A stretch of 42,907 nucleotides of DNA from Lachnospiraceae bacterium (GTDB taxonomy: Bacteria; Bacillota; Clostridia; Lachnospirales; Lachnospiraceae). Where the stretch lies: positions 1 through 42,907 of the forward strand of contig JAUNGL010000009.1 of NCBI GenBank assembly GCA_030524665.1, read 5' to 3'. This document shows positions 1-4,519 of the stretch, piece after piece (position 1 is the first letter of the stretch; each line of letters opens with the position of its first letter). The notes under the pieces were generated by a model that searched no databases, was not told where the DNA came from, and saw only the letters and a list, made by a program, of their open reading frames with translations. The position numbers were made by a program, and so were the translations under genes.

Positions 1-73
1 AAGTGAGTAACGCCAGAATGAACATACCAAAAGCCATAAGGTCTTTGAAATCAAAACGATTGTTATTGTTCAT
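1..73 (-). CDS. putative holin-like toxin (type I toxin-like small membrane peptide), partial
   Basis: This reading frame starts at ATG 73 and runs off the left edge of the window, so only 24 residues are visible: MNNNNRFDFKDLMAF and then a hydrophobic stretch GMFILALLT that begins a membrane helix. A strong purine-rich ribosome site (GGGGGCGGTG) lies just upstream. Short peptides with this polar N-terminus, a DLMxFGMF core and one membrane helix are usually annotated in Bacillota as putative holin-like toxins, often paired with an antisense RNA. The C-terminus and any antitoxin RNA lie outside the window, so the toxin role is inferred from resemblance only. The gene sits in the AT-rich DNA that begins where cotJC is broken. 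Confidence 0.6.
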   Translation of the reverse strand, partial: MNNNNRFDFKDLMAFGMFILALLT

Positions 74-143
74 CAGCACCGCCCCCATTCTATGTAAGAA
101 TAGAGGACAATCAAGCCTGTAAAACGGCTGATTCCATATTAGA

Positions 144-172
144 ATCATATCATATATACCTATTCGATTCAA
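144..172 (-). promoter_or_regulatory. sigma-A-type promoter for the holin-like toxin gene
   Basis: On the minus strand a -35 box TTGAAT (172-167) and a -10 box TATGAT (149-144) are separated by exactly 17 nt. The predicted start of transcription is about 65 nt before the toxin ATG. No competing gene uses this sequence. Confidence 0.5.
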
Positions 173-305
173 CGATTTTCTACACTAAAAGACTCTGGAT
201 TTTCCAATTAAATCAAGTGAATAAACTTACTGAAATCAGTAAATCTACGCTGGTCCGATTTAAACGATATAAAATTAAAGGAGATTTTGCCCTATAATTG
301 TATTC

Positions 306-419
306 TTATCTGTTATGACTATAAGGCCCTCCGTATTGTGTAATTATGATCTGTGCCAGCTTTGCGTTTGGGGTAGTGATATGAATCGGATATTCCAGTC
401 TTTTCTCATAATGCCACAT
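306..419 (-). pseudogene. cotJC: cotJC 5' fragment (manganese-catalase-like spore coat protein), broken after codon 32
   Basis: The frame starts at ATG 419, which overlaps the cotJB stop as TGATG and has an AGGAGG site 9 nt upstream, as expected for the third gene of cotJABC. The first residues (MWHYEKRLEYPIHITTPNA, then a segment ending QYGGP) match the N-terminus of CotJC, where the family normally continues into the ferritin-like manganese catalase body of roughly 190 residues. Here the match stops at about nt 324; the frame adds five unrelated residues (YSHNR) and ends at TAA. The start signals look intact, so the break seems recent or maintained. Either the gene was truncated, or an element lies inside it and the 3' part is to the left of the window. 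Confidence 0.75.
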
Positions 420-928
420 CAGCAGGCACCTCCTTCCAGCTCCCATGGCCACGGCTGTGTCATCCACTCCCAGGAATCGCAGTCTGTGCCGTCAATATCT
501 GCAAGTGTCAGCGGACCATATTTCTCTGCATAAGCTGCAAGCGCACGGTTCCGCAGCATATTATATTTTCTGAAATACTGCATGGCTTCCTGATCTTCCG
601 GGTGGGTATCCAGATAGAGCATTGCTTCATAGGCAGCAAAACTGACTTCATTCAGGAAGTCCAGAAGCTGCATGCGGTTTCCGGAAGGGATAGAATCACA
701 GGAATATTCCTGCCTGCATGGACACGACATGTTACAGGCTTCCTTCATCGGCCGCTTATCCTGCATACGTTCCCTGTAACTTCCCATATTGCTCCTCATC
801 GTATTCTGGCACTGGGATGTATAACCCTGCTGCATATGGTTCTGCCCCATACAGCCCTGATGCATCATATTCTGATATCCGGAGCCCCGGTTCATCGAAT
901 TCTGATTCATACAGTTCCTGCTGTTCAT
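419..928 (-). CDS. cotJB: spore coat protein CotJB with long Met/Asn/Gln/Cys-rich N-terminal extension
   Basis: CotJB is a small protein of the spore coat, made in the mother cell with CotJA and CotJC. The C-terminal 85 residues carry the family pattern: LLDFLNEVSFAAYEAMLYLD, a THPEDQEA segment, then YGPLT and the tryptophan-rich end WEWMTQPWPWE. The usual CotJB is only about 80-90 residues. This one has some 85 extra residues in front, rich in Met, Asn, Gln and Cys. I chose ATG 928, which overlaps the cotJA stop as ATGA and lies 9 nt after AGGAGG; ATG 934 is only 3 nt from it. The ATGA overlap suggests translational coupling. Confidence 0.85.
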   Translation of the reverse strand: MNSRNCMNQNSMNRGSGYQNMMHQGCMGQNHMQQGYTSQCQNTMRSNMGSYRERMQDKRPMKEACNMSCPCRQEYSCDSIPSGNRMQLLDFLNEVSFAAYEAMLYLDTHPEDQEAMQYFRKYNMLRNRALAAYAEKYGPLTLADIDGTDCDSWEWMTQPWPWELEGGAC

Positions 929-1152
929 CGGCATGCACCTCCTTTTCCGCAGAATGGCTTGCAAAGGCATGGGAAAATTGTACCAAGCTGCAGACCACGG
1001 CACGGTTCAAAGGTCTGATTCCAATGCTGATAAGGAACATAAGCCATGGCAAGCGGTGCATCCGCCATAGTCATATGGTGATATATTTCGCTGACTCTGC
1101 TGTTTGTCTTTTCCTTCTGACATGCACAGTCTGAACGGGATATCTCCTGCAT
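925..1152 (-). CDS. cotJA: spore coat associated protein CotJA
   Basis: This 75-residue protein contains the CotJA signature PLAMAYVPYQHWNQTFEP followed by a segment ending in GTIFP and a cysteine-containing tail. CotJA is the first product of the cotJ operon and joins the inner spore coat together with CotJC. The N-terminal 30 residues are not conserved in what I recognise. ATG 1152 follows an AGGAGA site by 9 nt. The gene is first in the operon and its stop overlaps the cotJB start. Its presence is the best sign that the organism makes endospores. Confidence 0.85.
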   Translation of the reverse strand: MQEISRSDCACQKEKTNSRVSEIYHHMTMADAPLAMAYVPYQHWNQTFEPCRGLQLGTIFPCLCKPFCGKGGACR

Positions 1153-1199: not shown

Positions 1200-1245
1200 A
1201 AACAAAAAAGAAAATGACAGTTGTACTGGAAAAATGAAAAAAGAT

Positions 1246-1255
1246 ATGGTATGAT
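1246..1255 (+). promoter_or_regulatory. possible extended -10 promoter for the SEDS gene
   Basis: TGGTATGAT ends at 1255, an extended -10 element with no clear -35 box. It is the best candidate in the 229-nt divergent gap between cotJA and the SEDS gene, and would give a leader of about 120 nt. Confidence 0.3.
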
Positions 1256-1381
1256 AACCCGGTATATGATTTGCAGCCAAATATATAAGCAAGTGCAAGA
1301 CGAACTGTCATTCATGGCAGGAGAGGGCAGTACAGATCTTCTCCGTCTGGCTTGCTGTTACGCGGAAATGAAAGGATTATT

Positions 1382-3058: not shown

Positions 3059-4519
3059 ATGAGTAACGTCAAGACAAGATTTGCACCCAGCCCGACAGGA
3101 CGGATGCATGTGGGAAATCTGAGGACTGCTTTGTATGCGTATCTGATCGCAAAACACTCGGGCGGTACGTTTATGCTCCGTATCGAAGACACTGACCAGG
3201 AGCGTCTGGTAGAAGGCGCCGTTGATATTATTTACCGGACCCTGGCTAAGACCGGGCTGGTACACGATGAGGGGCCGGACAAGGACGGCGGATGCGGTCC
3301 ATACGTGCAGAGTGAGCGTCAGAAAGCCGGTATTTATCTGGAATATGCAAAGAAACTGATTGAAAAAGGCGAAGCATATTACTGTTTCTGCGACAAGGAG
3401 CGTCTCGATTCCCTGAAGCAGGAGGTAGCAGGAAAAGAAATCGTTGTTTACGACAAGCACTGCCTGCATTTGTCGAAGGAAGAGGTAGAAGCGAAGCTGG
3501 CTGCCGGAGTCCCGTATGTTATCCGCCAGAATGTACCAAGGGAAGGTACGACGAGCTTCGTCGATGAGATTTATGGCGTGATCGAGGTTCCGAACGCAGA
3601 GCTGGATGATATGATCCTGATCAAATCAGACGGCTATCCAACCTATAATTTCGCCAATGTAGTAGATGACCATTTGATGGGAATCACCCATGTAGTGCGT
3701 GGAAATGAATATCTTTCATCTGCTCCGAAGTATAATCGGCTCTATGAAGCATTTGGATGGGAAGTTCCTGTATACGTACACTGCCCGCTGATCACAAACG
3801 AAGAACACAAAAAGCTCAGCAAGCGTTCCGGTCATTCTTCCTACGAAGATCTGCTGGAACAGGGCTTTGTATCAGAAGCAATTGTTAATTATGTGGCTCT
3901 TCTCGGCTGGTGCCCGGAGGATAATCGTGAGATTTTCTCTCTTGAAGAGCTGGTAGAAGCATTTGACTACCATCATATGAGCAAATCCCCGGCCGTATTT
4001 GATATACAGAAGCTCCGCTGGATGAACGGAGAGTATCTGAAAGCTATGGACAGCGAGGATTTCTACCAGAGAGCACTTCCATATCTGCAGAAGGTCATTA
4101 CAAAGGATATGGATCTGCACAAGATTGCGGAGATGGTCAAGACACGGATCGAAGTCTTCCCGGATATCGCTGAGATGGTTGATTTCTTTCAGGAAGTACC
4201 GGAATATGATCCGGCTATCTATACACACAAGAAAATGAAGACAAATATGCAGAGCTCTTATGAGGTATTAAAAGACCTCCTTCCCCTCCTCACAGCACAG
4301 GAGGATTACAGCAATGATGCCCTCTATGCGCTCCTGAAGGGCTACACGGAAGAGAAGGGCTATAAGAATGGCTACGTACTCTGGCCGGTACGGATTGCAG
4401 TATCCGGCAAGCAGATGACTCCTGCCGGGGCAACCGAGATCATGGAAGTCATCGGCAAGGACGAGACCGTGGCAAGAATCGGCAAAGCAATCGAACTGTT
4501 AGGAGAAGCATGCAAATAA
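3059..4519 (+). CDS. gltX: glutamyl-tRNA synthetase
   Basis: GltX charges tRNA-Glu with glutamate, using ATP, in the cytoplasm. The 486-residue protein has the class I signature [12 protein letters not shown] at residues 9-20 (HIGH motif), and KLSKRSG near residue 250 (KMSKS motif), followed by the helical anticodon-binding region. Length fits the bacterial family (about 470-490). ATG 3059 is preceded by AGAGG. The stop overlaps the start of the downstream helicase by 10 nt, so the two are co-transcribed. Whether it also charges tRNA-Gln (non-discriminating type) cannot be judged without seeing gatCAB or glnS in the genome. Confidence 0.97.

Follow-up and report, generated by a model that had tools for sequence, protein, structure and literature searches.

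Several mother-cell sporulation genes are split by DNA elements: sigK by skin, spsM by SPbeta, spoVFB by vfbin, gerE by gin and yabG by yin, as described in PMC5595907 and PMC10747680. In this class, the gene parts lie in one orientation, a recombinase is encoded at the element edge, a short core is present at both edges, and the content is either of the prophage or of the non-phage type; SPbeta also has a small partner protein, SprB (58 aa) for SprA (PMC4191935). Here we analyse the contig JAUNGL010000009.1 of the Lachnospiraceae bacterium assembly GCA_030524665.1 (42,907 nucleotides; this whole stretch is called the window below). Its first few hundred bases contain the start of cotJC, the gene of a spore-coat manganese catalase, which is broken after codon 32. 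Elements in cotJC resemble the class above in the orientation of the gene parts, the recombinase and the content; short cores are seen here in relatives, and the small partner protein is putative. They differ in the target gene itself, in having three families of large serine recombinases (LSRs) at three positions plus a fourth position, in cutting one gene two or three times, and in being found in several families of Clostridia. The described spore-gene elements are each tied to one gene, mostly with one element, whereas cotJC is a recurrent target, split in 24 of 62 order-level matches.

A second related system is found in the heterocyst elements of cyanobacteria, where 10 of 87 genes contain several elements and nifD of Rivularia contains four (PMC4874684). 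The elements in nifD, fdxN and hupL resemble those in cotJC in their multiplicity per gene and in minimal forms that hardly exceed the recombinase gene, but they belong to other bacteria and another cell type. The LSR encoded on contig C144 of our genome (see below) reaches 112.6 of 375 bits on the XisF model, far under its cut-off. Excision of heterocyst elements is known and developmental excision is reported for the skin/SPbeta class, whereas the cotJC elements are known here from sequence alone. A prophage adjoining a CotJC homologue has been described as well: phi027 of Clostridioides difficile R20291, which, according to PMC11222575 and PMC12122855, lies beside CDR20291_1465 (cotG) and not inside it. 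In openly licensed PMC full text (preprints not included), no description of elements inside cotJC was found; the supplementary target-gene tables of PMC10083194 may list the gene. The principle was established with skin, SPbeta, vfbin, gin and yin, and several elements per gene are documented in cyanobacteria, while cotJC as a target appears to be new in the literature searched.

We consider it likely, with a probability of roughly 0.7, that the window ends at the left edge of an element at site 33 of a cotJC gene doubly interrupted together with a site-62 element, and that excision in the mother cell rebuilds the gene.

The two end pieces of cotJC

The window is the complete contig C190 of the genome under study (G000), a metagenome-assembled genome (MAG) bin of 242 contigs that is 82% complete with an estimated contamination of 0.85%; as it is the entire contig, the assembly contains nothing further to the left. 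On the reverse strand, cotJC begins with an ATG at 419, preceded by AGGAGG and a TGATG overlap with cotJB. Similarity to CotJC extends over 32 codons and ends with ...QYGGP (CCT at 326-324), after which YSHNR and a stop at 308-306 on the same strand follow. Positions 1-33 of the Pfam family Mn_catalase match window positions 321-419 (E 6.8e-4), which is under the family cut-off because the piece is so short. The identity of CotJC is based on Mn_catalase, on the CotJB context and on alignment to the Mn catalases 1jku and 6j42. The GC content is 0.334 in positions 1-320 compared with 0.457 in the remainder of the window, and equally low values occur in 1.2% of 1040 sampled 320-bp stretches. An earlier sequence-only reading of this DNA had proposed an intact cotJC start, cut after codon 32 and joined to AT-rich DNA, and the reading frame, the Pfam match and the GC content agree with it. 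The break, regarded there as a possible insertion point of an element, is an integration site in many relatives: the core in the window is positioned where site-33 elements sit in them. The features are as follows.

324..419, reverse strand: cotJC 5' piece, codons 1-32 (reading frame, Mn_catalase match, bin search)
325..332, reverse strand: presumed recombination core GGAGGGCC, codons 30-32 (suggested by comparison with the G016, G021 and G019 cores)
300..324, reverse strand: putative element-side arm of the attachment site beside the core (position only)
1..323, no strand: AT-rich left end of the interrupting element, which the contig end truncates (GC content; the contig starts at base 1)
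2..73, reverse strand: start of a small hydrophobic open reading frame (ORF), 24 aa, cut by the contig end (ORF; "holin-like" label unconfirmed)
419..1003, reverse strand: ORF with a CotJB domain, overlapping the cotJC start (Pfam CotJB, E 1.1e-27)
925..1152, reverse strand: putative cotJA-like ORF upstream of cotJB (ORF; named from its position)
1241..1267, reverse strand: sigma-E-like promoter match upstream of the cotJ operon (consensus match only)

The 24-aa ORF start had been called a holin-like toxin gene. Pfam and NCBIfam give this label no support: no curated family of either was found above cut-off, and the ORF has no counterpart in the other loci compared. A search of viral contigs with the attachment-site arm of the window (24 bases) gave 0 matches.

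A search of the bin with full CotJC revealed just two pieces, codons 1 to about 32 on C190 and codons 61-205 on contig C144. On C144, the frame opens with GGT, codon 62, at position 3635, and 146 codons are open to the stop. An LSR gene with Resolvase and Recombinase domains, located on the same strand as the cotJC piece, ends at 3572, 62 bp ahead of codon 62, and it is closely preceded by a 66-aa ORF (1612-1812). With the main cotJC of genome G006, the C144 piece shares 83% identity; for the second copies of other genomes, the identity is 66-68% over their length. Both end pieces of our genome (codons 1-32 and codon 62 to the end) are open, and each element shows one edge only in the bin.

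The expectation that the remainder of cotJC lies past the element was borne out in part: there is an open remainder in the bin next to a same-strand LSR, but it starts at codon 62 and not at codon 33. Likewise, the large recombinase that had been predicted does accompany the remainder, but it belongs to the codon-62 family. The breaks at two different codons, 32 on C190 and 62 on C144, require two elements, or one that was rearranged; a single element with a direct repeat at both edges, as initially considered, does not fit.

Recurrent breaks, their recombinases and the element contents

Four positions in cotJC recur as break points within Clostridia: about codons 32, 62, 131 and 175. In the genus survey (47 genomes), a cotJC match was found in 45. 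Rows read by eye indicate a split gene in at least 11 genomes (G000, G002, G003, G004, G010, G016, G019, G021, G023, G042 and G056), a count that leaves out the ambiguous G017, G020 and G061; in coordinates of the match, the breaks lie near codons 32, 62 and 180. G018, a candidate by match length, was rejected since its contig ends inside an intact stretch, and so were G009 and G014, which have two overlapping, frameshift-like cotJC pieces on one contig.

The order survey was an even draw of 116 genomes, at least 85% complete except our own, with one query, draft assemblies and simple rules. Matches were obtained in 62 genomes: 32 have intact cotJC only, in 24 the gene is split with both an initial and a later piece present, and in 6 there are fragments of one side only, which can be contig ends. 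On visual inspection, G148, one of these six, is split as well; G025 contains an additional paralog piece. The fourth break, near codon 131, occurs in G034, G040, G111, G121, G123 and G151. Both cotJC halves are located on one contig in G016, G019, G066, G167, G084 and G070.

Some genes are cut more than once. Contig C11 of G066 (WRAG01000011.1, an Oscillospiraceae MAG) contains, on one strand, codons 1-34, 28-66 and 56-190 at 2535, 16171 and 21138, respectively. The complete chromosome of Anaerocolumna sp. AGMB13025 (NZ_CP121445.1) has three successive same-strand pieces, codons 1-64 at 6194685, codons 58-181 at 6186883 and codons 170-198 at 6150223, as well as an intact second copy elsewhere. 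In locus L195, a site-33 LSR, a piece with codons 22-65 and a site-62 LSR stand side by side. G068 has three cuts (four pieces, over contigs), as do G040, G123 and G151, and G067 also belongs to the multiply cut genes. Our genome would fit this pattern with the middle piece missing.

The LSR families follow the insertion sites. Eleven LSRs from cotJC elements form three groups, one for each of sites 33, 62 and 180, and the C144 LSR falls into the site-62 group. Identity within groups is 69-86% (site 33), 60-99% (site 62) and 50-62% (site 180), and between groups it is mostly 20-29%, with one short alignment of 34% and one pair undetected. Named genomes were searched with the C144 LSR group, and the best 80 of 459 confirmed relatives were kept; a cotJC piece lies at most 600 bp from the LSR in 59 of these 80 loci, whose hosts include, by record titles, Lachnospiraceae, Oscillospiraceae, Caldicoprobacter and Anaerocolumna. 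Of 200 family genomes, 24 have a strong relative of the site-33 LSR, with a cotJC piece in 19 of 29 loci, three of them weak (L347, L368 and L371). For the site-180 LSR, 13 of the 200 genomes have a strong relative, and a cotJC piece is strong in 5 of 15 loci and weak in one more (L386). All five loci with a strong piece have at least 61% identity to a known site-180 LSR, while the remaining relatives, with less than 50% identity, are not beside cotJC.

The interrupted frames can be restored. For 19 chosen junctions, the flanks were joined at the shared core giving the best alignment; three of them (G021, G111 and G034) join pieces from two contigs. In 16 of the 19, edge joining yields one uninterrupted, ungapped CotJC alignment, which for doubly cut genes covers the neighbouring pieces only. 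The joins in G010 and G034 needed small gaps, G004 (nearer 3' copy, with a stop) was not rebuilt, and in G111 the residues at the join fit poorly. The core measures 15 bp in G016, 18 bp in G021, and 13 bp in both G023 and G003; in the other 15 junctions it measures 2-9 bp, the 2-base cores being fitted and not proven. Arms that form inverted repeats are what one expects of an LSR attachment site. In G016 and G021, the arms on the element side are such repeats, scoring above all 300 shuffles; those of G019 share a 13-base match (no shuffle test), and in two site-180 cases the arm score was reached by 1 or 2 of 300 shuffles.

The positions of the breaks can be related to the catalytic centre. 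CotJC residues E35, E65, H68, E136 and H169 correspond in the 1jku alignment to E35, E66, H69, E148 and H181, the five metal ligands of that enzyme. The joins end at codons 30-33, 62-65, 128-135 and 175-177 (G004 apart), each about eight codons or less from a ligand. It is plausible that the breaks lie near ligand codons because the active-site DNA is conserved and thereby offers stable attachment sites.

The elements are of diverse content. Those of G016 (about 41 kb; head, tail tape-measure, terminase-like, replication and lysis genes) and G023 (about 64 kb; portal, terminase and tape-measure genes) are prophages, while next to its LSR the G004 element encodes a MobV relaxase and part of a CHC2-type primase, with near-identical ORFs in G056. 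Fifteen elements with both cotJC halves in the locus are 2.3-8.5 kb in length. The smallest, L114 (2.3 kb), contains little beyond the LSR and a 58-aa ORF, and L146, L101 and L108 (2.7-3.3 kb) have two further ORFs each.

The small upstream ORF and the promoter were analysed in 80 LSR genes, i.e., 79 scanned loci and C144. In 75 of them, C144 included, the LSR is closely preceded by the end of an ORF of 40-139 aa, and a loose motif fits 50 of the 80; no Pfam match was found in the four tested. The small ORF may encode a directionality factor.

Further arrangements can be noted beside the main pieces. In G061, an extra cotJC 3' part (codons 59-203; C8:26173-26610) lies a few kb downstream of intact cotJC, and in G004 the same codons (C38:1050-1487) lie a few kb downstream of the split gene; the two loci (L065 and L064) give the impression that a replacement 3' end was brought in, or displaced, by an element. 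Contigs C24 and C33 of G017 (L086 and L070) both stop precisely at the site-33 core and share 2 bases there, a pattern that could arise if the sample contained both joined and interrupted forms. G141 has three further cotJC-like pieces (codons 98-192; C3:116139-129324) beside its split main copy. No phage genes are obvious in the site-180 element of G010 (L062; C27, 18788-22545); its metabolic cargo, here within a spore gene, comprises a sugar kinase, a GPH symporter and, by eye, an SDR-like dehydrogenase. On C144 (L024), a weakly HipA-like ORF, below cut-offs, occupies 352-1440 of the reverse strand upstream of the 66-aa ORF; with the HTH-like ORF (by eye) at the contig start, it perhaps forms a toxin-antitoxin-like pair in the element.

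Proposed regulated excision and competing explanations

Upstream of the LSR operon, 19 of 80 cases (17 of 73 after removal of near-duplicates) show the pattern ATA-N17-CATA-N3-T, compared with a mean of 1.4 in 60 shuffles (maxima 5 in the set of 80 and 4 in the set of 73) and 1 on the reverse strand. Among the gaps compared, 17 gives 19 of 80, 25 gives 10, and 13 gives 7. The looser pattern ATA-N13..17-CATA-N3-T is also enriched (21 of 80), whereas with gaps 16-18 and no final T the signal is weaker (29 of 80 vs. 22 on the reverse strand). C144 has a similar sigma-E-like match with a 16-base gap. According to PMC3789822, ATA is the sigma-E -35 motif of C. difficile, and cotCB and cotD, the CotJC homologues of this species, are lowered in sigE and sigK mutants. 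The median pN/pS is 0.145 among the 3' parts of seven split genes (21 pairs; the set includes the presumed split G017 and G020) and 0.193 for eight intact genes (28 pairs). Thus, the 3' parts of split genes appear to be under purifying selection, which speaks for constraint and not for its timing.

In the reading we favour, a site-33 element would have inserted at about codon 32 of cotJC, with the window ending at its left edge, and a second, unrelated site-62 element at about codon 62, with its right edge and LSR on C144. The gene would then be in three pieces, the short middle piece and most of the first element being missing from the bin. Sigma-E-type transcription in the mother cell would lead to synthesis of the small protein and the LSR. 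The former may serve as a directionality factor, each LSR would recombine its own attL and attR, and the elements would leave as circles. Precise excision during sporulation would restore cotJC for coat assembly, and the elements would persist in the germ line, since the mother cell leaves no descendants. We infer the timing of excision, the role of the small protein and the two-element state of our genome.

Several results weigh against this reading. Codons 33-61 were not found in the bin as searched, and the site-33 LSR query matched only the C144 LSR (32% identity) and one on C92 (24%), i.e., no site-33 LSR was found there. The genes downstream on C144 have no counterpart in the 15 stretches of relatives searched, so the linkage of C190 and C144 is based on uniqueness and homology. 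In-frame stops are present in split cotJC of G028 and G037 (several in each) and in one of the two 3' copies of G004 (one stop). Of the best 80 site-62 loci, 21 lack a piece close to the LSR: in 9 it is further off and in 12 there is none, although 3 of the 12 end within about 150 bases of the LSR. Similarly, 10 of the 29 site-33 LSR loci have no cotJC piece in the stretch examined. As for the promoter, gap 17 was picked from the same data before the shuffle test, and strict sigma-E, sigma-K, sigma-G and sigma-A patterns showed no enrichment upstream of the LSR operons. Synonymous sites are near saturation, and the signal of purifying selection may be left over from genes that were intact until recently. 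Finally, no excised form was seen in the sequence data.

The first alternative is that cotJC is a plain integration hotspot, a dispensable gene whose conserved DNA serves phages and mobilizable elements for insertion, without regulated excision during sporulation. The prophages and the MobV/CHC2 element described above agree with this, as do the stops in some split genes; moreover, as cited in PMC11222575, disrupted C. difficile CotJC homologues resulted in lower catalase activity and no significant coat defect. Yet a minimal element of an LSR and a small ORF persists, the promoter motif is enriched, and the frames on both sides are open and under apparent purifying selection; we rate a plain hotspot as unlikely.

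Rather improbable is the relic scenario, in which elements hit cotJC and a rearrangement then lost codons 33-61, fusing the left edge of the site-33 element to the site-62 element and leaving a gene that cannot be rebuilt. A deletion of this kind has to be considered because the middle piece and the site-33 LSR were not found in the bin, and the stops listed above indicate decay elsewhere. However, the middle piece would sit on element-only contigs, which are often lost in binning, and this bin is 82% complete in 242 contigs; other genomes retain the middle piece between both elements, and both end pieces of our own gene are open.

It is very improbable that the bin is chimeric, with two contigs from different strains, each with a single interruption. 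The breaks at two codons and the missing synteny link for C144 could be read in this way, but the estimated contamination is low, one piece of each kind is present, and double interruption occurs on single contigs elsewhere. Plain truncation or decay of cotJC was set aside, since the breaks are at recurrent integration points and the C-terminal piece is beside a matching LSR, and so was contamination as the source, at 0.85%, as less likely.

Beyond this genome, we suggest tentatively, with the balance tipping slightly towards doubt, that much of Clostridia carries cotJC as a gene in pieces that is spliced during development. As many as three unrelated LSR elements, each tied to one stretch of metal-ligand-motif DNA, would all have to exit the mother-cell chromosome before the coat catalase is made, and the gene would be a common docking site, free of germ-line cost, for phages, mobilizable elements and minimal LSR cassettes. 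If this is true, some spore formers may need DNA-level splicing to restore cotJC, and the dependence of the spores of common gut Clostridia on such splicing becomes testable. A "truncated cotJC" in such genomes is often a split gene, and nature here offers sets of LSR families whose targets lie close together and which are paired with small proteins, a test bed for regulated excision.

The sigK gene in the genus

The best sigK-model match in our genome (C13:1686-2294) shows no break, but the cut-off of this model is not reached in any genome of the genus. Partial best sigK matches, covering the profile to about position 122 or from about position 96, were observed in G009, G012, G013, G020, G045, G049, G051, G053 and G054, some of these genomes showing one part among the matches listed. 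Such partial matches are consistent with skin-like elements in sigK.
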